This document shows positions 1 to 12,344 of a DNA stretch of 13,629 nucleotides, piece after piece. The stretch is taken from assembly GCA_018061385.1 (NCBI GenBank), contig JAGOUF010000016.1, positions 1 to 13,629 on the forward strand, written 5' to 3'. Position 1 is the first letter of the stretch. Every line of letters starts with the position of its first letter. The notes under the pieces are model-generated. The model did no database searches. It was not told the DNA's origin and was given only the letters and a program-made list of their open reading frames with translations. The DNA is from Chitinophagaceae bacterium (GTDB lineage: Bacteria > Bacteroidota > Bacteroidia > Chitinophagales > Chitinophagaceae). Made by a program: the position numbers and the translations under genes.

Positions 1-63
1 CACTACACCAGTAAGAATAAAAAGTTTTGAAGTGGTGAGTTTATTACTGTTCAATTGTTCCAT
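1..63 (-). CDS. norB: N-terminal fragment, probable nitric oxide reductase subunit B (norB), cut by window edge
   Basis: An ATG at 63-61 opens a frame that stays open for 21 codons to the window edge, reading MEQLNSNKLTTSKLFILTGVV. It begins inside the last codons of norC and overlaps that gene by 20 bp, a spacing typical of translationally coupled subunits. The short peptide turns hydrophobic from about residue 14, as expected for the first membrane helix of a heme-copper-type subunit. NorB, the catalytic cytochrome b subunit that reduces NO to N2O, is the usual partner downstream of norC. The identity is inferred from gene order and the hydrophobic start, because no catalytic residues are in the window. 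Another membrane protein is possible. Confidence 0.55.
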   Translation of the reverse strand, partial: MEQLNSNKLTTSKLFILTGVV

Positions 64-445
64 CGTAATTACGTATAAAAGTTTTAGGATCAGATTTTCC
101 CGAAGCATCAATGGTTTTTAGAAAGGCCAGTAACATACTTGTTTCTGTTTCTGTTAAATTAAATTGAGGCATGGCTCCAGTACCAGTTTTTAAAAATGCT
201 TGTATGTATTTTGAGCCTCTTGTAGAGTATACATTGGTTAAATCTGGGCCTAAGTATCCACCAAGTCCATATACTTGATGGCAGGCATTGCAATTGTATT
301 TTTGCCAAATTAATTTTCCAGCATCTGCATCTTTATTTACCTCAGTTGTTTGTATGGGTAATTCGGTGTACAAGAAAAAAGAGTAGCTTAAAAAGCCCAT
401 TAATAGTAAGAGTAGCGTAAATACTTTTTGCCGATTTCGGAACAT
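44..445 (-). CDS. norC: Nitric oxide reductase subunit C, membrane-anchored monoheme cytochrome c
   Basis: This 133-aa protein passes electrons to the NorB subunit, which reduces NO to N2O. Residues 8-26 form one N-terminal membrane anchor; the rest would face the periplasm. The heme c motif is CNACH (Cys52, Cys55, His56). It is followed by GGYLGPDLTNVYSTRG, very like the segment after the heme site in proteobacterial NorC, and by GAMPQFNLTE, where Met92 is the likely axial ligand. Length and motif order fit NorC (about 145 aa) better than a generic cytochrome c. The start is an ATG just before the anchor, with no Shine-Dalgarno sequence. The 3' end overlaps the next minus-strand frame, probably norB. 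A -7-like box and a long palindrome sit directly upstream. The family is clear; the assignment to NorC rather than another small cytochrome is strong but not certain. Confidence 0.85.
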   Translation of the reverse strand: MFRNRQKVFTLLLLLMGFLSYSFFLYTELPIQTTEVNKDADAGKLIWQKYNCNACHQVYGLGGYLGPDLTNVYSTRGSKYIQAFLKTGTGAMPQFNLTETETSMLLAFLKTIDASGKSDPKTFIRNYDGTIEQ

Positions 446-572: not shown

Positions 573-1088
573 ATGAGCCGAGAACAATATATTTCTCCAT
601 TATTCAATCGCATTCAACGTTGGCAAATGTTTGTTAACACACATATTTTTTGGAAGTTCCAATTTTTTAAAGATCTAGTGGTCAATAAAATAGAGCAAAA
701 AAATATTCCTATCGAAAACCCAATAACGAATCAAAATCCCCTGGTGTATTCCTGCTCTGGATGTTCTAGTGCTGCACAAATGGCTAATTATTTAGCTGTT
801 CAGTTAGATAGAAAAAACGTTGCCGAAATGTCGTGTATTGCAGGTGTTGGTGGCAATGTAAAGAAGCTAATACGTACTGCTACTTCAGGCAGGAAGATTA
901 TTGTTATAGATGGTTGCCCATTGGCATGTTCAAAAGCATGTTTGGGCAATCATTCAATAACGCCTGATGTTCATATTGAATTAACAAGTATGGGTGTAAA
1001 AAAAATGAATCATGTTGATTTTGATATGCAACAAGCCAATAAAATATTAGAGCAACTTCAACAACAGCTTGAAGAAAAGTTGGTATAA
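573..1088 (+). CDS. DGC domain protein, putative zinc-binding
   Basis: The 171-aa protein has a C-terminal DGC-type domain (residues about 57-165), named after the Asp-Gly-Cys motif seen here as DGCPLACSKACL (Asp113-Gly114-Cys115). The cysteines Cys61, Cys64, Cys88, Cys115, Cys119 and Cys123 would form the proposed metal site; the first pair lies in YSCSGCSS. There is no signal peptide or membrane helix, so a cytoplasmic location is likely. The first 50 residues are an aromatic, basic extension that I do not recognise. The molecular function of the family is unknown. The gene is divergent from norC and shares its control region, which suggests a role in handling NO or nitrite stress, for example metal or thiol sensing. 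That is inferred from context only. A terminator-like hairpin follows at 1207-1246. Confidence 0.8.
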   Translation: MSREQYISPLFNRIQRWQMFVNTHIFWKFQFFKDLVVNKIEQKNIPIENPITNQNPLVYSCSGCSSAAQMANYLAVQLDRKNVAEMSCIAGVGGNVKKLIRTATSGRKIIVIDGCPLACSKACLGNHSITPDVHIELTSMGVKKMNHVDFDMQQANKILEQLQQQLEEKLV

Positions 1089-1206
1089 AAGAAATTTTAT
1101 TCAAGTTGCAATTCATTCTCTTCAACTAGTTTTTCATCAATTTCAATATTCTTTGAAGAATTTATAATTGGTAGAATTGTTTTAGATTTATAGTAAATTT
1201 TGCAAT

Positions 1207-1246
1207 AAATGTGTATCTAAACAGTAAAGCGTGGATACACATTTTT
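1207..1246 (+). terminator. Rho-independent terminator-like hairpin after the DGC gene
   Basis: AAATGTGTATC (1207-1217) pairs with GATACACATTT (1234-1244) as a perfect 11-bp stem with a 16-nt loop, and the T run continues to 1246. It lies 119 bp past the DGC stop and 45 bp before mnmH, so it would separate the two transcripts. The stem is AT-rich and the loop large, so termination strength is uncertain. Confidence 0.55.
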
Positions 1247-1290
1247 AATTTAAATGGCTTCTCAAATATCCTTTAAATATATTTGTTTAT

Positions 1291-2346
1291 ATGGGAGTAA
1301 ATAGAATTGATGTAACCAGTTTCTTAAACCTTGCAACAGAGCATTTAATTATTGATGTAAGAAGCCCTGCAGAATTTGAACATGCACATATTCCTAAAGC
1401 ATTTTCGTTGCCATTATTTACCAACGATCAACGTAAAGTTGTTGGTACAACTTACAAACAACAAAGTAGGGAAGAAGCCATTAAAATAGGACTAGATTAT
1501 TTTGGACCCAACATGAAAAGTATAGTTGTACAAGTTGAACAACTATTGCAAAAAAAAAATACCAAAACGGTTTTAGTACATTGTTGGCGTGGAGGAATGC
1601 GAAGTGCAGCCATTGCTTGGTTATTGGATTTGTATGGCTTTAAAGTATATACATTACAAGGCGGTTACAAAGCATTTAGAAATTGGGCATTGCAACAATT
1701 TATTGCACCATATCCATTACAAGTTTTAGGAGGATTTACTGGTAGTGCAAAAACAGAAACACTATTGGTTATGCAGCAACGCCAACAAATAGTAATAGAT
1801 TTAGAAGGATTGGCCAATCACAAAGGTTCGGCATTTGGTAGCTTAGGAATGATTGCACAACCAAGTACAGAAATGTTTGAAAATATACTGGCATTGGAAT
1901 TGCGTCAGGCTTTAATTAAAATTTCCAATACTCCACAAAATTGTATTTGGGTTGAAGCTGAAAGTCAGCGAATTGGTAATATTAACATACCTATAGAATT
2001 TTTTAAACAAATGCAAGCAGCACCGTATTTGCTGGTAAACATTCCTTTTGAAGAAAGATTAAATTTTATTGTATCGGCTTACGGCAAATTTGAAAAAGCA
2101 GAATTAATTAATGCAACCCTTAGAATTAAAAAAAGATTGGGAGGCTTAGAAACCAAAACGGCTATTAATTTTTTATTAGAAGACAATGTAAAAGATTGTT
2201 TTGCATTGTTATTACAGTATTACGATAAATACTATAAAAAAAGTAAATTGGGCAACGAGCCAATGGTTCAATCAATTGAATTTAACGATATCAATGCAAC
2301 ATTAAATGCAAGTAAAATTATTGAATGGAAAAGTCAACAAGTATAA
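1291..2346 (+). CDS. mnmH: tRNA 2-selenouridine synthase (SelU/YbbB)
   Basis: MnmH replaces the sulfur of 2-thiouridine at the wobble position of Lys, Glu and Gln tRNAs with selenium from selenophosphate, through a geranylated intermediate. The 351-aa length fits the family (about 360). An N-terminal rhodanese domain (about 5-135) carries the active-site loop VHCWRGGMRS with Cys98. The C-terminal part has a P-loop, GGFTGSAKTE (147-156), followed by the family signatures DLEGLANHKGS (170-180) and WVEAESQRIGN. The P-loop has Ala where the Walker A consensus GxxxxGK[ST] has Gly. The last 22 bp overlap the start of selD, so the two are probably translationally coupled, which suits an enzyme that uses the product of SelD. 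Start: an ATG directly before the rhodanese domain. Confidence 0.93.
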   Translation: MGVNRIDVTSFLNLATEHLIIDVRSPAEFEHAHIPKAFSLPLFTNDQRKVVGTTYKQQSREEAIKIGLDYFGPNMKSIVVQVEQLLQKKNTKTVLVHCWRGGMRSAAIAWLLDLYGFKVYTLQGGYKAFRNWALQQFIAPYPLQVLGGFTGSAKTETLLVMQQRQQIVIDLEGLANHKGSAFGSLGMIAQPSTEMFENILALELRQALIKISNTPQNCIWVEAESQRIGNINIPIEFFKQMQAAPYLLVNIPFEERLNFIVSAYGKFEKAELINATLRIKKRLGGLETKTAINFLLEDNVKDCFALLLQYYDKYYKKSKLGNEPMVQSIEFNDINATLNASKIIEWKSQQV

Positions 2347-3407
2347 CAACAGAAAATAACGAACCAATACAATTAACACAATTTGCAAGTGGTGCAGGTT
2401 GTGGTTGTAAAATTGCCCCACAAGTGTTGGCAACTATTTTAGCAGGCAATCAATCAGAAATATTTAAGGAATTATTGGTAGGCAACAGTGCCAACGATGA
2501 TGCAGCTGTATATAAAATTAATGATACACAAGCCATTATTAGCACTACCGATTTTTTTACACCAATTGTAAATGATGCATTTGTTTTTGGACAAGTTGCA
2601 GCCGCCAACGCCATTAGCGATGTATATGCAATGGGTGGAACTCCTTTAATGGCATTGGCAATTTTAGGATGGCCAGTAGATGTTTTGCCAACTGCATTGG
2701 CACAACAAGTTTTAGCTGGTGCAAAAGCCATGTGTAAACAAGCTGGTATACCATTGGCTGGTGGACATAGTATAAACATTAAAGAACCAATTTTTGGCTT
2801 AAGTGTAAATGGTACAGTTGCCATAGAACATATTAAACAAAACAATACAGCTAAGCCAGGCAATTTATTGTTACTCACAAAACCAATTGGTGTAGGCGTT
2901 TTAGCAACAGCAGCAAAACGTGGTTTGTTAGAAGAAACTGATTTGCCAATTTTTTATCAGCAACTAACACAACTAAATTCTATTGGAGAAGCTTTGGGGA
3001 AAATAGATGCTGTAACCGCATTAACTGATGTAACAGGTTTTGGACTTTTAGGACATTTAATTGAAATGGCAGAAGGCAGCAATTGTAGTGCATCCATTCA
3101 ATACAATGCTATTCCAATATTGCCATCCATAAAAAATTATTTAGCTCAACGCATTGTGCCAGATGCTACTTTTAGAAACTGGAATGGTTATAGCCATAAA
3201 GTAAAATTTGAAACTGGTGTAAATGTGATGGAAGCTTTTCAAACTTTGCCAGATCCTCAAACAAATGGTGGTTTATTAATTGCTGTAGAACCACAAGGTT
3301 TAGCAATAGTGCAAGAATTGCTAAAAGCCAATGGCTACGAAGCTTTTATACAACCAATTGGTTATTTAACAGAACCGCAAGAAAAGTGTATTACTGTAAC
3401 TATTTAG
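2325..3407 (+). CDS. selD: Selenide, water dikinase (selenophosphate synthetase)
   Basis: SelD makes selenophosphate from selenide and ATP, giving AMP and phosphate. The 360-aa protein shows the N-terminal catalytic loop GAGCGCKI with Cys26, Cys28 and Lys29, so this is the cysteine form, not a selenoprotein. It continues with NDDAAVY, STTDFFTPIV, the segment ISDVYAMGGTP, the Gly-rich GGHSINIKEP, TDVTGFGLLGHL and DPQTNGGLL, in the order expected for the PurM-like ATP-binding fold. The start codon lies inside the end of mnmH. No selA, selB or selC is seen in the window, so the visible use of its product is tRNA selenation. Confidence in the function is high. Confidence 0.96.
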   Translation: MEKSTSITTENNEPIQLTQFASGAGCGCKIAPQVLATILAGNQSEIFKELLVGNSANDDAAVYKINDTQAIISTTDFFTPIVNDAFVFGQVAAANAISDVYAMGGTPLMALAILGWPVDVLPTALAQQVLAGAKAMCKQAGIPLAGGHSINIKEPIFGLSVNGTVAIEHIKQNNTAKPGNLLLLTKPIGVGVLATAAKRGLLEETDLPIFYQQLTQLNSIGEALGKIDAVTALTDVTGFGLLGHLIEMAEGSNCSASIQYNAIPILPSIKNYLAQRIVPDATFRNWNGYSHKVKFETGVNVMEAFQTLPDPQTNGGLLIAVEPQGLAIVQELLKANGYEAFIQPIGYLTEPQEKCITVTI

Positions 3408-5611: not shown

Positions 5612-6175
5612 ATGGCAAACAACAAAAAAATTTCTACAAAACAACAAACAGAATTGTTGAATATTTTAGAAACTCGGTTCAATAAAAACCTGAAACGCCA
5701 TAAGAATATTGATTGGTCTGTTGTTCAAGCAAAACTCATCAAACATCCAGAAAAATTATGGAGTTTGAATGAAATGGAACTAACAGGTGGTGAACCAGAT
5801 ATTATTGAGTTTGATTCAAATACAAATGAATTTATTTTTTACGATTGTTCTACAGAAAGTCCTAAAGGCAGAAGAAGTATTTGCTACGATAGAGCAGCAT
5901 TGGATGCTCGAAAAGAATTTAAACCAGCAAATAGTGCAATGGATATGGCAACAACGATGGGTATTGAAATGTTAACTGAAGAGCAATATAGAGTACTGCA
6001 ACAACATGGATCTTTTGATACCAAAACTTCAAGTTGGTTAAAAACCCCAAATGATATTCGAAAATTGGATGGTGCAATATTTGGCGATTTCCGATATAAC
6101 AAAGTGTTTATTTATCACAATGGAGTTCAATCTTATTATGCAGGAAGAGGGTTTAGAGGCTTGCTTAAAGTTTAG
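5612..6175 (+). CDS. DUF4256 family protein
   Basis: The 187-aa protein carries the conserved run of the DUF4256 family over nearly its whole length: RFNKNLKRHKNIDW, LWSLNEMELTGGEPD, FYDCSTESPKGRRSICYDR, NSAMDMATTMGIEMLTEEQYR, FDTKTSSWLKTP, and the C-terminal YHNGVQSYYAGRGFRGLLKV. It has no signal peptide or membrane helix, so it is probably cytoplasmic. The biochemical function of the family is unknown. The ATG used here has no Shine-Dalgarno sequence, as usual in this phylum, and the protein is full length. Its 3' end overlaps the end of the convergent SCO gene by 11 bp, so the two transcripts meet tail to tail without room for a terminator. Nothing links it to the denitrification genes except proximity. 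Confidence 0.88.
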   Translation: MANNKKISTKQQTELLNILETRFNKNLKRHKNIDWSVVQAKLIKHPEKLWSLNEMELTGGEPDIIEFDSNTNEFIFYDCSTESPKGRRSICYDRAALDARKEFKPANSAMDMATTMGIEMLTEEQYRVLQQHGSFDTKTSSWLKTPNDIRKLDGAIFGDFRYNKVFIYHNGVQSYYAGRGFRGLLKV

Positions 6176-6782
6176 ATTTTGCCAAGTTTTTTATGGTACT
6201 TATTGTTTGAGAATGATTGGCTTCTAAACCTTCTGTTTGAAGTTTTAATCGGCCTTGTTGGTCTAACACAGAAATAAGATTGCTGTGAGAAAAATTTCCA
6301 TCTGCATCTTTTTCATATTGAACATTGAGCAACACCGAGAGTGTTCTTACTGCATCATCGCTGCCATGTAATAAGGTCCATTTTTTATCCAATCCCGATT
6401 CGTTAGCAAAAACTTTAAGTCTTTCTGGAGTATCTCTTGCTACATCAAAACTTACCAATAAATAATTTACATCTATACCTTTTAAAGAGTCTGAAACAGA
6501 AACCATATCTGCTGTTAATCTTGGGCAAGCATAACCACAATGTGTAAAAACCATTCCAACCACTGTAGGTTTGCCTTTCAACTTATCAAGTGTAAAATCT
6601 TGATTGTCCTGTGTTTTAAATGTGTCTTTCAAATTAAAAATACTTTCAGCAGGAATAACTTCATTGATACTATTGGCTGAGTCTTTACCATTTGAAGCTG
6701 CATCTTTTTTAGAATCAGCTCCGTTACCACATGATAATAGTACAATTGATATCATAGCAATTGCTGCTAAATATTTTTTCAT
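6165..6782 (-). CDS. SCO1/SenC-family copper chaperone lipoprotein
   Basis: The 205-aa protein has a lipoprotein signal, with lipobox LLSC and lipidated Cys18, then a thioredoxin-like SCO domain (about 45-200). The copper/redox motif CGYACP supplies Cys82 and Cys86, and His166 in NFSHSNL fits the third metal ligand. SFDVARDTPERL matches the conserved segment of the family. SCO proteins deliver copper to, or reduce, CuA sites of terminal oxidases and act in the assembly of other cuproenzymes. As the last gene of the nirK operon, this one could help load the copper centres of NirK; that is inferred. The gene starts 34 bp after the SUMF1-like gene. A short inverted repeat (ATCAAAA-TAT-TTTTGAT, 6801-6817) lies between them. 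Confidence 0.9.
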   Translation of the reverse strand: MKKYLAAIAMISIVLLSCGNGADSKKDAASNGKDSANSINEVIPAESIFNLKDTFKTQDNQDFTLDKLKGKPTVVGMVFTHCGYACPRLTADMVSVSDSLKGIDVNYLLVSFDVARDTPERLKVFANESGLDKKWTLLHGSDDAVRTLSVLLNVQYEKDADGNFSHSNLISVLDQQGRLKLQTEGLEANHSQTISTIKNLAKSKL

Positions 6783-6816
6783 TTTTATAAATTTAATAGT
6801 ATCAAAATATTTTTGA

Positions 6817-7602
6817 TTATTTCACGTAATCTGCTGCACACCTAAATCCTAGGTTTGCAATACAATAATTTCCTCTTAAACTTCCTCTGTAAGAAAATCG
6901 TAAAAATGCAGCATAATCTTCCATGTCATTTACTTCAATAGAAGCTGCTGCACAAAAAGTTTTTCTTTCTTCTTCTTCACTACTTCTTGAATCTCCTTTA
7001 CTTAAAAAACTGTTGAAATCAAATGTCCATTCCCAAACCAATCCATGCATATCGTACAAGCCATTTACATTGCTGTAAGTAGTTTTTACATTGGGCAATA
7101 CTTTTGGATTGGGATGCCTATACCACTCTAAAATGTATTTGGTAAGTGGCATGGTTATTTTGTTTTTGGGTGCTGCATTTCCAGCCATTTCCCATTCTGC
7201 AATAGTTGGTAAACGTTTCTTTTTCCAACTACAATATGCTTTTGCTGCAAACCAACTTACATTTACAACTGGCGATTTATAAATGGCTTTTTGTGAATCG
7301 CCAATTATAAAATCGCTTTCCCAATGTTTTAAATAATTGGCATCGGCAAACAATCGATTTATTTTTGAACGGCTCCACTGTGGATTTGCTTTTACAAATT
7401 CTACAAACTCTTCATTTGTAACTGCATATTCATCCATATAAAATGCTTCCACTTTTATAGGTTTGTTATTGCCTGTTTTAAAGAATGACTTATAAAAACC
7501 ACTCTTTATTGGTTTTGATTTATTATCGACAATTGTTTTTTGCTGAGCATTTACCAACGTCGAAAAATAAAAAATAAATAGTATAGATAGTAGATATTTC
7601 AT
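6817..7602 (-). CDS. SUMF1/FGE-fold protein, NirV-like, exported
   Basis: The 261-aa protein begins with a signal peptide (cleavage likely after NA at 18-19) and then has the formylglycine-generating-enzyme-type fold: FYMDEYAVTNEEFVEFV (54-70), VNVSWFAAKAYCSWKKKRLPT, GLYDMHGLVWEWTFD and the C-terminal NLGFRCA. In true FGE two cysteines five residues apart bind copper in the active site. Here the region reads TFCAAAS...FSYRGSLRGNYC, with Cys217 and Cys247 far apart, so the second active cysteine appears to be missing and sulfatase activation is unlikely. Members of this fold are encoded next to nirK in denitrifiers, where one has been named NirV, with no clear function. Its place directly after nirK fits that name. 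A periplasmic role in NirK maturation is inferred from context. Confidence 0.8.
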   Translation of the reverse strand: MKYLLSILFIFYFSTLVNAQQKTIVDNKSKPIKSGFYKSFFKTGNNKPIKVEAFYMDEYAVTNEEFVEFVKANPQWSRSKINRLFADANYLKHWESDFIIGDSQKAIYKSPVVNVSWFAAKAYCSWKKKRLPTIAEWEMAGNAAPKNKITMPLTKYILEWYRHPNPKVLPNVKTTYSNVNGLYDMHGLVWEWTFDFNSFLSKGDSRSSEEEERKTFCAAASIEVNDMEDYAAFLRFSYRGSLRGNYCIANLGFRCAADYVK

Positions 7603-7607
7603 TGCAG

Positions 7608-7644
7608 AAAAAATAACGAACGGCTGTATAAAGCCGTTCGTTAT
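7608..7644 (-). terminator. Strong hairpin with T5 run between nirK and the SUMF1-like gene
   Basis: ATAACGAACGGC (7613-7624) and GCCGTTCGTTAT (7633-7644) form a perfect 12-bp stem with an 8-nt loop. Read in the direction of the operon it is followed by five T (7612-7608), and the ATG of the next gene is only five bases further on. It has the form of an intrinsic terminator, yet no separate promoter fits in front of the downstream gene. It probably acts as a partial terminator or as a 3' stabiliser of the nirK message. Confidence 0.75.
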
Positions 7645-7653
7645 AAAATTTAA

Positions 7654-8691
7654 TTATTTTTTTATGGCTTTATAAACATTGGGGTTTTCATCGCCTTCAA
7701 CTTTTATTTGTGCAACTGCACCTTTATGAAATGCTCTAAAAATTGCATGATCTACTATATGATATGTACCTGGAACTTCCATTTTCATTTCTACAATAGA
7801 AGAGCCACCTGGAGGAATAACAGTTGTTTGCACATTGTTATTAATTAAACTTCCACCTTCAACAAATACTCTATCAAATATTTCACCAATTACATGGAAA
7901 GATGACGTAAGGTTGGGTCCACCATTTCCTACAAACAATCTTACAGTTTCACCAGTTTTTGCTTTTAATGAATTGGCTCCTGCATTGGCATTTACTTTAC
8001 CATTAAACAACACATAATCTGCATCTTCTCTAATTGCTTTTTCCATATCAAACTCTTGTAAGCCTGGTGCTCCAAATTTTCCTTTTGTATAAAAATCGCC
8101 TTGCATTAAATAAAATTCTTTGTCAACTTTTGTCATGCCAGATTGTGGTTCAACAAGAATTAAACCATACATGCCATTTGCAATGTGCATACCAACTGGA
8201 CCAGTAGCACAATGGTAAACAAATAAGCCTGGATTTAATGCTCTAAACTCAAATGTAGCAGACTGGCCAGGAGCAACCAATGTTGCCACTGCTCCACCTC
8301 CAGGTCCAGTTACAGCATGTAAATCAATGTTGTGTGGCATCTTGCTATCTGGCATATTTTTCAAAGTAAAATTAACCAAGTCACCTTCTCTCACCCTTAT
8401 AAATTTCCCAGGAACTTTACCACCAAAAGTCCAAAAAGTATAGTCCGTTTTTTCATCAATCTTCATCACTTTTTCTATTACTTCCAACTCTACCATTACT
8501 TTTTTAGGAGAAGTATATTCTAGTTGTTTTGGTACCATTGGAACGTCAGTAAGTTCTGCTGTAACTGTTCCTGTAGTAACTGTGTCAATTGTTGCTTTGT
8601 TGCTTGCATTGTTTTTTCCTCCTTCTTTGCAGGAAATGGCGGCAAACATAATTACCATAATTGGGATGACTTGCAATAATTTTCTGTTCAT
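7654..8691 (-). CDS. nirK: Copper-containing nitrite reductase, AniA-type lipoprotein
   Basis: NirK reduces nitrite to nitric oxide in denitrification. The 345-aa protein has a lipoprotein signal with lipobox AISC (Cys21), a low-complexity linker to about residue 60, and two cupredoxin domains. [12 protein letters not shown] gives His120 (type 1 Cu), Asp123 (catalytic) and His125 (type 2 Cu). [17 protein letters not shown] gives His160 (type 2), then Cys161, His169 and Met174 (type 1). SSFHVIGE gives the catalytic His266 and VDHAIFRAF the type 2 ligand His315. All ligands are present. The short Cys-to-His spacing and the sequence around [15 protein letters not shown] are like Neisseria AniA. 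Its product NO would be handled by the NorCB pair at the left end. It follows the porin-like gene by 38 bp. Confidence 0.97.
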
Positions 8692-8729
8692 TTTTTTTAT
8701 TTTAAATTGTTAATGTGCGATTACTTATT

Positions 8730-10073
8730 TTAAATATTTCGACTAAAAAGTTTTATTTCTGGATTTACAATAATGGATATCCAAATCCAGTTTTGCATGG
8801 GTTTCATTTCTTTGCTATCTGGTATATTTTTTATATACTTCATAGAAGCTGAAGGCAGCATTTGTCCAACCCCTCCAATAATTTTAGCTCCATTGTCTAA
8901 GCTATAATTGAATGATAAATCTATTTCATTTCCTAAGTATGCACTTGCTGCTTTATTTTGATAATTGAGAATACTTACTGGCGATACAAAATGATGAACT
9001 GCAATTTGGAAATTTGTTTTTTTATCGGCTTTTAAAGAAGCATTTAAATAGCTATCCCAAAGCCCTGTATTTTTATGTGGGCTTGCAACATAGAAGTAAT
9101 CCATGTAACCATAAAACTTATGGTGTGTTCCATAAAGTGGATTAAAAGCTGTCATTTTGTTACTTGTACTGCCCATACCCATACCACTTAAATAATCAGA
9201 TCCAATACCAAGGGTAAATTTTTTACTAACTGAATAGTTGCCATAAAGCGAAGCCATCCAAGCTGAAGTATTTATTGCAGCAGCATTTTTAATGTTCGAT
9301 TTTCCTGTTTGTAAATAAACACTAGCTGTTGCATTTAGCTTAGCTGTTTTATAAAAAGCATTAACTCCAAATGTTTGTGTAGTAGCATACAAAGAATCGG
9401 TACTTTTTTGTTTTGCTTGATTCATTAATAAAGTAGTAAATTTTAAACTATCATTTACTTTATATTGTAACCAAGCAAATTGTAAAGATTTGTAAGGCTG
9501 ACTTTGTGCATCGTTAAAAAAGGTATTGTTTACTTTTTCTGTATTCTGATTAAAAGCCAATCCAATATGTGTTTTTAATTTTCCTTTTTCGTGCATCAAC
9601 AATACAGCATCATGTTTTCTACCAGCATTGTGCCAATCCAATGAACCCAATATTCTTTCGTCATCATAAGATAATATTTGACGGCCCATTTTAATTTGCA
9701 TTTTTTTAGATAAAGCCATTTGTACCCATGCTTCAAAAAGACTAACGTTGTTAGCTGTTTGTTGTACTTGTGCATCGTTACCCCAAACATTCAGCATTTG
9801 TAAGGTTATGCTGGTTGTAATTTGATTTCCTTTTGAATAAATTAAACCCAATCTGTTGCGTTGCGAAATAAATGCTGCAGGTTGTTCTCCTTGTAAAATT
9901 GGAGTAAATACACCGTTTCTTAATTCAGCCCTTGGCCTTATTTGTAATTGAATTTTTAGTTCTTCTTGTATATCTGTTGAATTGTTTTGCTGAGCAAATA
10001 TAACTTTTGTTGTAGATAGGATAAATACGCTTAGAAGAATTGTGGTGAGAATGATTTTGTATGCTTTTTGCAT
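8730..10073 (-). CDS. Alginate-export-family outer membrane beta-barrel protein
   Basis: The 447-aa protein starts with a signal peptide (MQKAYKIILTTILLSVFI..., cleavage likely after FA at 26-27) and then shows alternating strands typical of a porin-like barrel. LKIQLQIRPRAELRNG, FISQRNRLGL, the segment MGRQILSYDDERILG (129-143) and WHNAGRKHDAV are typical of the alginate-export-type family (AlgE-like fold). It probably forms a channel in the outer membrane; the solute is unknown, and nitrite, nitrate or another anion would suit its place as first gene of the nirK operon. A longer frame is open back to a TTG at 10094, but the ATG at 10073 gives a normal signal peptide and lies after the predicted promoter, so it is preferred. 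No alginate genes are near. Confidence 0.75.
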   Translation of the reverse strand: MQKAYKIILTTILLSVFILSTTKVIFAQQNNSTDIQEELKIQLQIRPRAELRNGVFTPILQGEQPAAFISQRNRLGLIYSKGNQITTSITLQMLNVWGNDAQVQQTANNVSLFEAWVQMALSKKMQIKMGRQILSYDDERILGSLDWHNAGRKHDAVLLMHEKGKLKTHIGLAFNQNTEKVNNTFFNDAQSQPYKSLQFAWLQYKVNDSLKFTTLLMNQAKQKSTDSLYATTQTFGVNAFYKTAKLNATASVYLQTGKSNIKNAAAINTSAWMASLYGNYSVSKKFTLGIGSDYLSGMGMGSTSNKMTAFNPLYGTHHKFYGYMDYFYVASPHKNTGLWDSYLNASLKADKKTNFQIAVHHFVSPVSILNYQNKAASAYLGNEIDLSFNYSLDNGAKIIGGVGQMLPSASMKYIKNIPDSKEMKPMQNWIWISIIVNPEIKLFSRNI

Positions 10074-10098
10074 TTGTTGTATGGTTGATTTCAAACAA

Positions 10099-10106
10099 CA
10101 AAATTA
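10099..10106 (-). promoter_or_regulatory. -7 element of the nirK operon
   Basis: On the minus strand TAATTTTG matches TAnnTTTG. Transcription would begin near 10094, leaving a leader of about 21 nt before the ATG at 10073. The box starts 50.5 bp from the centre of the ATGAC-N4-GTCAT site, which puts that site near -62 (class I activator geometry). No good -33 TTG is present, which fits an activator-dependent promoter. Confidence 0.45.
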
Positions 10107-10128
10107 AAATAACCAAGAATTTTTTATT

Positions 10129-10150
10129 TGAGAATTCTCATATTGCAATA
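10129..10150. repeat. Two adjacent perfect palindromes upstream of the nirK operon
   Basis: TGAGAATTCTCA (10129-10140) is a perfect 12-bp palindrome and TATTGCAATA (10141-10150) a perfect 10-bp palindrome. They abut each other and run into the Crp/Fnr-like site. They may be binding sites or simply part of a larger DNA-bending region. Confidence 0.5.
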
Positions 10151-10164
10151 TGACATTTGTCATA
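10149..10164. promoter_or_regulatory. Crp/Fnr-type operator, nirK operon side
   Basis: TATGAC-ATTT-GTCATA is a perfect 6-4-6 inverted repeat with the layout of FNR/CRP-family sites (compare TTGAT-N4-ATCAA for FNR). The core ATGAC-N4-GTCAT recurs at 10435-10448, and the shared sequence extends leftwards as AATATGAC in both. The regulator, possibly an NO- or oxygen-responsive Crp/Fnr protein, is not in the window. Confidence 0.6.
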
Positions 10165-10191
10165 ATAAAAGATAATCTTATCTTTTATTAT
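10162..10191. promoter_or_regulatory. 30-bp operator-like palindrome, copy 2 of 2
   Basis: A perfect inverted repeat: left arm ATAATAAAAGATAA (10162-10175), 2-bp centre TC, right arm TTATCTTTTATTAT (10178-10191). It overlaps the end of the Crp/Fnr-like site by three bases, and its centre is about 82 bp upstream of the predicted nirK-operon start. The sequence recurs in front of norC (461-490) with 5 mismatches in 30. Recurrence before two NO-metabolism transcription units argues for a dedicated regulator site rather than chance AT-rich symmetry. Confidence 0.65.
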
Positions 10192-10217
10192 TGTACTTTA
10201 ACTCTCGAACTTTCTTT

Positions 10218-10337
10218 ATGGATGCTACCATTGTAATATTTGTAATTTTTATAGGATTGTCTTGAATCTCAATGAAAAATGATGCTCCCGAAAGAACTCA
10301 TGAAAAAAAATTTACACCACAAGTAATTAACGAATAA
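10218..10337 (+). other. Small frame with hydrophobic start and in-frame TGA, possible broken small membrane protein
   Basis: From ATG 10218 the frame reads MDATIVIFVIFIGLS, then TGA (10263-10265), then continues in the same frame as ISMKNDAPERTHEKKFTPQ... to TAA at 10335. If the TGA were TGG it would encode a 39-aa protein with one membrane helix and a charged tail. It could be a nonsense-mutated small protein, two unrelated short frames, or non-coding DNA. The rest of 10192-10434 shows only AT-rich sequence and a 6-bp inverted repeat GGAAGA/TCTTCC. Confidence 0.2.
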
Positions 10338-10434
10338 AAAATTGCGGAAGACAACAACTGTATGAGTTTCTTCCAAAACCAGACATAAAAAGATAAATAA
10401 TTTTTTTAATGCAATATTCAATTATTTACAGAAT

Positions 10435-10478
10435 ATGACTATGGTCATTTTATGTGCCCCAAAAAAAGATTGAATTTG
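10435..10478 (+). promoter_or_regulatory. Crp/Fnr-type class II promoter of the large uncharacterised gene
   Basis: ATGAC-TATG-GTCAT (10435-10448) has its centre 29.5 bp before the -7-like box TGAATTTG (10471-10478), which differs from TAnnTTTG at one position. A start near 10483 would place the operator at about -41.5, the classic class II activator position. This start lies after the ATG at 10452 and before the ATG at 10536, so it also decides the start codon of the gene. Confidence 0.5.
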
Positions 10479-10535
10479 CAAATAGCTACACAAGTTTTTA
10501 GTGTGTGGCATAAACTTCAATCAACATTTTGTACT

Positions 10536-12344
10536 ATGCAGTATTCATCACCTCACAAATTTCACATACCAGTAATGGGATTGGCTTACACAATTGATAG
10601 CCCAATTAAAGTTGCAAAATTTGGTATTTCATCGGTTATTTCAATTGTGGAAGATCGTTTAATTGAAATGATGCGTAGCCATTACTATCCAATGATTGAT
10701 AAGGTTTACACTGCTATTAGTACACATGAAGAAGATTACAGAGCTAAAAGAATTGCAGATTATTTAAATCTTGTAAATGCAATTGTACAATCACAAATTG
10801 AAAAAGTACGAACAGCAGCTTTTGAAGTTGGATCGGATATTGTACAATATTTTGAAATGCTACCAAATGATAGTACACTTAAAAAAATCTATCAACAAAT
10901 GGTTGAAAGTAGCAATAAAGTTGAGCAAGAAAAATTAGCAACTTATTTAAGAGCTCAAATTGTTGCAGGAAGCATTGATGTAAATATTATGACCAAAGTG
11001 GATAGAGATACTTACAACAAAGATGGTGAAGTAATTGCCGATAATTCCGATGCTATTGCTGCATTAAGAGGTTATGCAAATAGTAATTTATCTAACTCGT
11101 CCGTAATTTTTTCTGCAGGTATGAACCCAAGGTTGTACAATTATTTAGAAAAGTGTACCGACTTTGATTTGCAAGAAAATGGAACATTTAAAAAGAAAGT
11201 AATTATAAAAGTAAGCGATTATAGAAGTGCATTAATTCAAGGAAAGTATTTAGCAAAAAAAGGAATTTGGGTAAGTGAGTTTAGAATCGAATCTGGCTTA
11301 AACTGCGGTGGTCATGCTTTTGCAACAGATGGGGTTTTGTTGGGTCCAATATTAGAAGAGTTTAGAGTGAATAAAGAAGAACTAATTGCTTCGTTGTTTG
11401 AAATATATCAAATGGCAGTCAATAGAAAAAATGGTACAACATTAACTTCAGCTCCAAACATCATTTTTTCTGTGCAAGGTGGTATTGGCACTTTTGAAGA
11501 AGATACGTTTTTACATCAATATTATCAGTTTGAAAGTACAGGTTGGGGAACTCCATTTTTATTGGTACCAGAAGCAACTACAGTTGATAAAGCAACTTTG
11601 CAAAAACTAAGTGCAGCACAAGCAAGTGATCTTGTATTGAGTTATAACTCACCTTTAGGGGTTCGTTTTCACTACTTAAAAGGCACAACTGCCGATGCTG
11701 AAAAACAAGCTCGTATACAAAGTGGTAAACCTGGTAGCCCTTGTACAGAGAAGCATTTGGCGTTTAATACAGAGTTTACTAAAGAGCCTATTTGTACTGC
11801 ATCTCAAAAATACCAGAAGCTAAAAATTGAACAATTACAAACACTTGATTTGCCAGCTGTTGAATACAATAAGCAAGTAAAGTTTGTGTTAGATAAAGAA
11901 TGTTTATGTGTTGGATTGAGCAATTCGGCAGCATTGGAACACAATGAAATTTTCTTAAAAAAATATACTGCTGTTAATGTTTGTCCTGGTCCAAATATTG
12001 CCAATTTTTCAAAAGTAGTTTCTTTAAAAACTATGATCGATCACATTTATGGCAGAACCAATGTAATTACCAATACTAGCAGGCCACACATGTTTGTTGC
12101 AGAATTGTATTTGTATATTGATTATTTGAAAGAGCAGTTAGAAGATTTTTTTCAAACAAATCAATTTGCTAAAAAAGAAAAATACATAGCAAGTTTTTGT
12201 AAAAATTTAAGAGACGGAATTAACTATTATAATCAATTGCCAGAACAAGAAAAGATAGCTCAAAAACAGTTTATTAAAGATTTAAATAAAATTGAATTGG
12301 AGTTAGATGCGTTGAAATATCAGTATGAAATGTCTTTTGCATAA
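10536..12344 (+). CDS. Large conserved-looking protein of unknown function, possibly an FMN-type TIM barrel
   Basis: This 602-aa protein (ATG 10536; the frame is open to an ATG at 10452, 28 codons earlier) has no signal peptide or clear membrane helix and is probably cytosolic. I cannot assign a characterised function. The N-terminus FHIPVMGLAYTIDSP runs into KVAKFGISSVISIVED (9-40), then a charged helical part follows (about 40-180). Next come the motif-rich segments KVSDYRSALIQGK, SEFRIESGLNCGGHAF (247-262), FSVQGGIGTFEED (311-323) and GWGTPFLLVPEAT (336-348). Cysteines sit in GLNCGGH (257), GKPGSPC (403), EPIC (420), CLC (456, 458) and NVCPGP (483). The order IPVMG, then GGH, then GGIGT, then GTPFLL resembles that of nitronate monooxygenase-type FMN barrels; this is a weak inference. 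The Crp/Fnr-like promoter ties it to the nirK operon. Confidence 0.75.
   Translation: MQYSSPHKFHIPVMGLAYTIDSPIKVAKFGISSVISIVEDRLIEMMRSHYYPMIDKVYTAISTHEEDYRAKRIADYLNLVNAIVQSQIEKVRTAAFEVGSDIVQYFEMLPNDSTLKKIYQQMVESSNKVEQEKLATYLRAQIVAGSIDVNIMTKVDRDTYNKDGEVIADNSDAIAALRGYANSNLSNSSVIFSAGMNPRLYNYLEKCTDFDLQENGTFKKKVIIKVSDYRSALIQGKYLAKKGIWVSEFRIESGLNCGGHAFATDGVLLGPILEEFRVNKEELIASLFEIYQMAVNRKNGTTLTSAPNIIFSVQGGIGTFEEDTFLHQYYQFESTGWGTPFLLVPEATTVDKATLQKLSAAQASDLVLSYNSPLGVRFHYLKGTTADAEKQARIQSGKPGSPCTEKHLAFNTEFTKEPICTASQKYQKLKIEQLQTLDLPAVEYNKQVKFVLDKECLCVGLSNSAALEHNEIFLKKYTAVNVCPGPNIANFSKVVSLKTMIDHIYGRTNVITNTSRPHMFVAELYLYIDYLKEQLEDFFQTNQFAKKEKYIASFCKNLRDGINYYNQLPEQEKIAQKQFIKDLNKIELELDALKYQYEMSFA

Follow-up and report, generated by a model that had tools for sequence, protein, structure and literature searches.

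An unnamed, widely conserved protein family of Bacteroidota: a probable remote relative of nitronate monooxygenases with a cysteine-rich tail, one member of which is encoded opposite a nirK operon

FabX of Helicobacter pylori (HP0773) is described as a nitronate monooxygenase (NMO)-family enzyme that combines flavin mononucleotide (FMN) with a C-terminal [4Fe-4S] domain (PMC8626469). The NMO-like protein NGO1024 (UfaA) of Neisseria gonorrhoeae was reported to be induced in the absence of oxygen, like the nitrite reductase aniA (PMC3032703), and to be essential for unsaturated acyl synthesis under anaerobic conditions, its electron acceptor being given as unknown (PMC11300592). Here we describe a gene of a Chitinophagaceae bacterium (contig JAGOUF010000016.1) that lies opposite an operon for the copper nitrite reductase NirK and encodes a 602-residue protein. 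The stretch analyzed, referred to as the window, is an entire contig (C16, 13,629 bases) from a draft assembly with 80% completeness. The protein belongs to a widespread, unnamed and strongly conserved family, which probably represents a new arrangement within a known superfamily, a remote NMO/FabK/PfaD-type barrel extended by a tail with five invariant cysteines. No publication naming the family was found, which is weak evidence of absence as most subscription papers were beyond reach.

The family protein and its relation to NMO-type barrels

The open frame spans 10452-12344 on the forward strand. The start codon at 10536 appears better than that at 10452 because most homologues start within about 10 residues of it and because a palindromic site then lies about 94 bp upstream rather than touching the open frame. 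The parts of the gene are as follows, with residues numbered from 10536.

10536..12344, plus strand: family gene, 602-residue protein, stop codon included (open reading frame (ORF), homologue starts, presence in 112 of 296 genomes of the phylum)
10554..10643, plus strand: predicted strands beta1-beta2 of the barrel (H7 to S36), low model confidence (AlphaFold (AF2) strands 7-14 and 33-37; conserved HxFHIPVMG)
10698..10970, plus strand: predicted helical segment inserted between strands beta2 and beta3, spanning roughly residues 55-145 (AF2 helices 68-93, 101-107, 114-124 and 128-140)
11295..11315, plus strand: GLNCGGH, residues 254-260, after beta6, with H260 at the catalytic histidine position of NMO/FabK/PfaD and C257 invariant (aligned with PfaD SGGH and NMO EAGGH)
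11475..11492, plus strand: QGGIGT (314-319), which follows beta7 and is the presumed FMN-phosphate loop (pairs with GGI in NMO and GGIGT in PfaD)
11541..11669, plus strand: beta8 and the next segment, GWGTPFLLVPEATTVD..LSxxSPLGVRF (336-378), which corresponds to the part of NMO that follows beta8 (profile alignments)
11724..11795, plus strand: GKPGSPC to C420, the first two invariant cysteines of the C-terminal extension (64-sequence alignment)
11901..11909, plus strand: CLC, invariant C456 and C458 (64-sequence alignment)
11982..11993, plus strand: CPGP, invariant C483 (64-sequence alignment)

An initial annotation, made from the DNA letters alone, had quoted five motifs, and all were found: GLNCGGH (254-260), QGGIGT (314-319), GKPGSPC (397-403), ECLC (455-458) and NVCPGP (481-486). 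All five rank with the most strongly conserved stretches of the family. The cysteines C257, C403, C420, C456, C458 and C483 were present in 64 of 64 aligned homologues, and H260, G315, G316, G318, P484, G485 and P486, like the string CPGPN, were kept in at least 63 of the 64. The same annotation could name no family, and database searches bore this out. Neither Pfam nor NCBIfam gave anything near cut-off or any credible family for the window protein or 22 further members, and PF03060 and TIGR02814 produced no row for any of them at E <=1. The best NCBIfam row, NF001645 (hypothetical protein; E 0.0011, four of 23 members), is unrelated and far below cut-off. Searches of the PDB with the whole protein, by phmmer and by profile, gave no credible sequence match, and those with the C-terminal part returned nothing beyond weak chance matches, most of them helical.

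Profile-profile comparison points to the NMO superfamily. A family profile of 64 sequences was aligned by HHalign with profiles of an NMO/FabK set (29 proteins), an inosine monophosphate dehydrogenase set (10), a dihydroorotate dehydrogenase set (5) and 19 neighbour families. NMO/FabK was the best of these 22 profiles (E 0.0045, score 31.65), the other 21 having E values of 0.1 or worse, and its score exceeded those of all full-length column-shuffle controls (n = 60, top score 23.8) and of a reversed alignment (17.9). The match to the enoyl reductase domains of PfaD type (three proteins) was stronger (E 0.0023, score 34.15; top of 60 shuffles 24.2), and its alignment pairs GGH with SGGH and GGIGT with GGIGT. 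The histidine after beta6, H260, coincides with the GGH histidine of both PfaD and NMO. When both sides were cropped to beta3-beta8, the NMO match reached E 0.0011. Default settings aligned only the beta7-beta8 part of the crop; at a relaxed posterior threshold VN (beta3), SAG-NP (beta4), VS..A (beta5), GGH (beta6), GGI (beta7) and G[ST]xF..EA..A..D (beta8) fell in order. AF2 models showed a barrel-like strand order, and Foldseek returned mostly triosephosphate isomerase (TIM)-barrel matches for them, the first for both models being the PfaD-type enoyl reductase domain of DfnA (4cw5; 9.8e-4 and 3.4e-4).

Several results weigh against this relationship. The AF2 models were weak, with a predicted local distance difference test (pLDDT) score of 58-63, and a cropped model matched unspecific barrels. 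The probabilities that HHalign itself assigned were low (8-21%), one of 100 shuffles of the beta3-beta8 crop came near the real score (28.49 vs. 29.52), and neither PF03060 nor TIGR02814 detected the family above cut-off. We therefore describe the link as supported but remote homology, drawn from several agreeing lines of sequence comparison, with no firm family assignment; an NMO-superfamily barrel is very probably present. The annotation's proposal of an NMO-type FMN barrel with a cysteine-rich C-terminal extension is upheld to that extent. The profile comparison with NMOs that it had called for yielded the remote match above, and the structure prediction and fold search that it had also called for gave TIM-barrel-like models of low confidence. 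The FMN itself is an inference: given the barrel, FMN binding would be highly probable.

Distribution, promoter sites and association with respiration genes

Among 296 genomes sampled from one phylum, 112 had a match to the family. The phylum was judged to be Bacteroidota from the named relatives in a single-sequence scan of genome contigs, which returned three relatives. Nearly all of the 112 matches covered at least 530 of the 602 residues at 43-69% identity; that in genome G290 was interrupted by a contig end. One genome (G095) held a second, broken copy (L099, G095:C1:4371176-4372856) in addition to an intact one, and another (G152) had two full-length matches. The family was not found in 72,556 plasmids by tblastn or in viral contigs with four queries in four scans. 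It has been seen so far in Bacteroidota only, with other phyla hardly sampled.

The window contains exactly two TGAC-N4-GTCA palindromes, and both lie in the gap between the family gene and the nirK operon (10095-10535), a number reached in 0 of 200 shuffles.

10436..10447, no strand: TGACTATGGTCA, palindrome of Fnr/Crp type whose centre lies about 94 bp upstream of the start codon (motif search)
10151..10162, no strand: TGACATTTGTCA, the other palindrome, upstream of the divergent nirK operon (motif search)

These sites sustain the earlier suggestion of a Crp/Fnr-like promoter opposite the nirK operon. Across 64 family loci, the strict palindrome occurred upstream of eight of the 64 family genes and of nine of the 687 other ORFs of the same loci (p 2e-5), and the relaxed form TGAY-N4-RTCA upstream of 17 and 41, respectively (p 1e-6). 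The 687 ORFs include many inside operons, hence the comparison was repeated with minimum upstream gaps. With gaps of at least 100 bp the enrichment persisted (strict 7/50 vs. 8/354, p 9e-4; relaxed 13/50 vs. 28/354, p 4e-4). In some family loci the palindrome also precedes nirK, ccoNO, ccoI and cytochrome c genes. It is probably the site of one Fnr/Crp-type regulator, as judged from the sequences. At a 150-bp gap the enrichment was weaker (strict 4/39 vs. 7/276; relaxed 8/39 vs. 23/276; p 0.035-0.038), and 47 of the 64 members have no such site within 300 bp upstream. In the window, the relaxed form found just the same two matches, a number reached by 49 of 200 shuffles, and the classical TTGA-N6-TCAA with one mismatch occurred at chance level.

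The family co-occurs with genes for nitrogen-oxide and low-oxygen respiration. NirK scored over cut-off in 48 of the 296 genomes, 32 of them with the family; a further 18 genomes with divergent matches of 128-177 bits, which may not be nitrite reductases, were added where stated (G227 appears in both groups). The family was present in 55 of 98 genomes with NosZ, in 83 of 144 with CcoN, and in 29 of 37 with nitric oxide (NO) reductase, a call that in ten genomes rests on sub-cut-off NorC-like matches alone. Presence rose with the number of kinds of nitrogen-oxide reductase, from 27/156 genomes with none to 44/87 with one, 34/46 with two and 7/7 with three (divergent NirK-like and NorC-like matches included). 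Stratification by taxonomic family retained the association (Mantel-Haenszel odds ratio 3.9, p 4e-4; 169 of the 296 genomes, 19 families). It held among genomes with ccoN, where 67 of 83 carriers and 36 of 61 non-carriers had a nitrogen-oxide reductase (p 0.005), and among those without ccoN (18/29 vs. 19/123, p 1e-6). Some taxonomic families run the opposite way; in f34, three of five carriers and four of five non-carriers had such a reductase. Forty carriers had nirK, a divergent NirK-like gene or nosZ on the same contig as the family gene, at most 25 kb away in 25 (six through the divergent NirK-like gene only) and more than 100 kb away in 11; the pair in G124 is 185 kb apart. The divergent NirK-like matches (TIGR02376, below cut-off) come mostly from one taxonomic family (f23), and in several genomes the distance to the family gene is just a few kb.

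The family does not track denitrification alone, as 27 of the 112 carriers have no nirK, nosZ or NO reductase. NrfA scored over cut-off in 11 of these 27 and was convincing (>400 bits) in nine, one of which (G255) has an internal stop. NirS had no credible match in the 27; three weak partial matches just over cut-off (at most 35 bits, with neighbours) were left uncounted. This leaves 18 carriers with neither these reductases nor a convincing NrfA, 13 of which have ccoN over cut-off. The initial annotation had tied the protein to the denitrification regulon and had named orthologues in genomes lacking nitrogen-oxide metabolism as evidence to the contrary. Promoter sites, co-occurrence and neighbors across families agree with the link, the 27 carriers make it broader than denitrification, and the 18 partly realize the contrary case. 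The shared regulator-type site and the co-occurrence, both sequence-level observations, make it highly probable that the family gene belongs to a low-oxygen/nitrogen-oxide regulon.

Gene neighborhood

Neighborhoods were compared in 64 loci, comprising the window, three from the contig scan and 60 drawn from the remaining 111 matched genomes, chosen mostly by rank and then spread over lower ranks; some stretches end at contig ends. Neighbors were identified through Pfam or NCBIfam. In the window, the facing genes are as follows.

6165..10094, minus strand: gene run for porin-like, NirK, FGE-sulfatase-domain and SCO1-like proteins (ORFs, Pfam, NCBIfam)
7654..8691, minus strand: NirK, the copper nitrite reductase encoded in the facing operon (TIGR02376, 367 bits, cut-off 296)

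The porin gene product resembles an alginate-export-like protein, and the FGE-sulfatase-domain protein is presumably NirV-like. Recurrent neighbors in the 64 loci include an Rrf2 regulator (nine loci), CcoNO (eight), NirK (seven, the window included), NosZ (seven), NadA (six), NadB (five), a CcoI-type ATPase (five), NosD (five), ScdA/hemerythrin (four), CcoG (four), a U32 peptidase (three) and a radical-SAM protein that reads as HemN (three). The two largest neighbor clusters are generic, a Por-secretion-tail cluster (14 loci) and a kinase-like one (12 loci).

NadA/NadB and HemN represent oxygen-independent routes to nicotinamide adenine dinucleotide (NAD) and haem, so the neighbor set looks like one for oxygen-independent respiration and biosynthesis. 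The linked set of cbb3 oxidase, nadA/nadB and HemN-like genes points to a low-oxygen regulon and not to nitrogen oxides only. In several lineages (L002, L036, L067, L071, L072 and L090) nadA and/or nadB are adjacent to the family gene or close to it, which would fit membership of the de novo NAD pathway in this low-oxygen regulon. A NosD-F-Y run lies close upstream in five loci; a hypothetical nos-cluster protein has been argued to be NosB (PMC9697520).

Two further parts of the window were noted. A small c-type cytochrome (44-445, minus strand) resembles a NorC-like NO-reductase partner (PF22085, below cut-off), and norB may lie just beyond the contig end, next to it. A DGC-domain protein, followed by ORFs that we take to be rhodanese/MnmH-like and SelD-like, occupies 573-3407 on the plus strand; these genes are perhaps a selenium-for-tRNA set.

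Proposed role and comparison with known enzymes

The protein would be an FMN-dependent oxidoreductase remotely related to NMO/FabK/PfaD, in which beta2 of the TIM barrel is followed by a helical insertion. FMN would sit in the barrel with its phosphate at the GGIGT loop; the general base would be His260, close to the flavin, and the neighbouring C257, which is invariant, may tune the reaction or take part in it. The five tail cysteines (403, 420, 456, 458 and 483) are probable ligands of a metal or Fe-S cluster that would move electrons to or from the flavin; such a site in the tail is rather likely. Expression would come from an Fnr/Crp-type promoter alongside genes for low-oxygen and nitrogen-oxide respiration. 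Taken as a whole, with the substrate left aside, a flavoenzyme with a cluster in this regulon is plausible, although somewhat short of an even chance.

The enzyme might desaturate, isomerize or dehydrogenate an acyl or similar substrate without oxygen, replacing, in the manner of UfaA-type enzymes, an oxygen-requiring enzyme while the cell lives on nitrite, nitrous oxide (N2O) or trace oxygen. Such an oxygen-independent biosynthetic step is favored because of the precedents of FabX (FMN and [4Fe-4S]) and UfaA (anaerobic induction, acyl synthesis); we propose it tentatively, as a role by analogy that is rather less probable than its opposite, and rank it above the alternatives of detoxification and maturation. 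An acyl substrate is suggested purely by analogy; fatty-acid genes do not figure among the identified recurrent neighbors of the family. A FabX-type protein, as a possible redundancy for the acyl role, was sought in the best PF03060 match per genome, and the FabX cysteine motif was absent from these 29 NMO-set proteins (28 genomes, best matches only; own genome 80% complete).

The initial annotation had proposed detoxification of a reactive nitrogen product, in which FMN chemistry would remove a nitro compound, nitronate or nitrosated metabolite arising from nitrite or NO reduction. The NMO-superfamily signatures, the presence of the family in 29 of the 37 genomes with NO reductase, and the ScdA/hemerythrin-type proteins and Rrf2 regulators among the neighbors fit such a function, but the 27 carriers without nirK, nosZ and NO reductase, 18 of them also without convincing NrfA, do not. 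Moreover, the nitropropane dioxygenase reaction as described uses oxygen (PMC3032703), which would be odd under anaerobic control, and the family has NCGGH where the 29 NMO-set proteins have EAGGH. Detoxification thus found no particular support and seems unlikely. An electron-transfer or maturation factor for copper or haem respiratory enzymes (cbb3 oxidase, NirK, NosZ) would suit the many cysteines, the loci near CcoI-type ATPases, NosD-F-Y runs and Sco, and the 83 of 112 carriers with ccoN over cut-off. Against it, 61 of the 144 ccoN genomes lack the family, no signal peptide or membrane segment was seen by eye (no predictor was run), and the signatures belong to substrate-converting flavoenzymes; we give it the same small chance as detoxification.

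Less probable still is that the barrel likeness is convergent or an artefact, and that a cysteine-rich protein of another fold belongs to a real regulon. The low confidence of the models and of HHalign and the unspecific barrels matched by the cropped model would agree with this, whereas two separate target sets, the shuffles and six colinear motifs agree on the barrel. The family could even be a new, independently built FMN and Fe-S class within the NMO superfamily that takes over an oxygen-requiring biosynthetic step, acyl desaturation or another, in nitrite, N2O or micro-oxic respiration, and whose new cysteine-rich module passes flavin electrons to an anaerobic acceptor. This is doubtful. 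Roughly 40% of the genomes sampled from the phylum have the gene, often beside genes for nitrite, N2O and cbb3 respiration. An oxygen-independent bypass, if true, would name a biosynthetic step replaced during growth on nitrogen oxides and a possible limit on N2O consumption in these abundant bacteria, and the NMO superfamily would gain a new cofactor arrangement.

Among named enzymes, PfaD and the trans-acting enoyl reductases (TIGR02814; enoyl reductase domains of DfnA and MlnA) share with the family GGH after beta6, GGIGT after beta7 and the profile match at E 0.0023. In contrast to them, the family goes undetected by TIGR02814, has a helical insertion after beta2 and a cysteine-rich tail, and has no polyketide synthase or polyunsaturated fatty acid gene noticed among its recurrent neighbors. 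With NMO/FabK (PF03060) it shares the colinear beta3-beta8 signatures, matched best in the segment after beta7-beta8, but the PF03060 profile misses it, NCGGH replaces EAGGH, and its proteins have about 600 residues compared with 311-365. The family tail (C-x16-C-x35-C-x-C-x24-C) does not contain the four-cysteine [4Fe-4S] motif of FabX, whose spacing is C-x3-C-x3-C-x11-C by the residue numbers given in PMC8626469. FabX and UfaA are set apart from the family here by description and not by sequence. Both are NMO-family enzymes, to which the family is probably a remote relative, and the anaerobic induction of UfaA, like that of a nitrite reductase (PMC3032703), would match the regulon proposed here.
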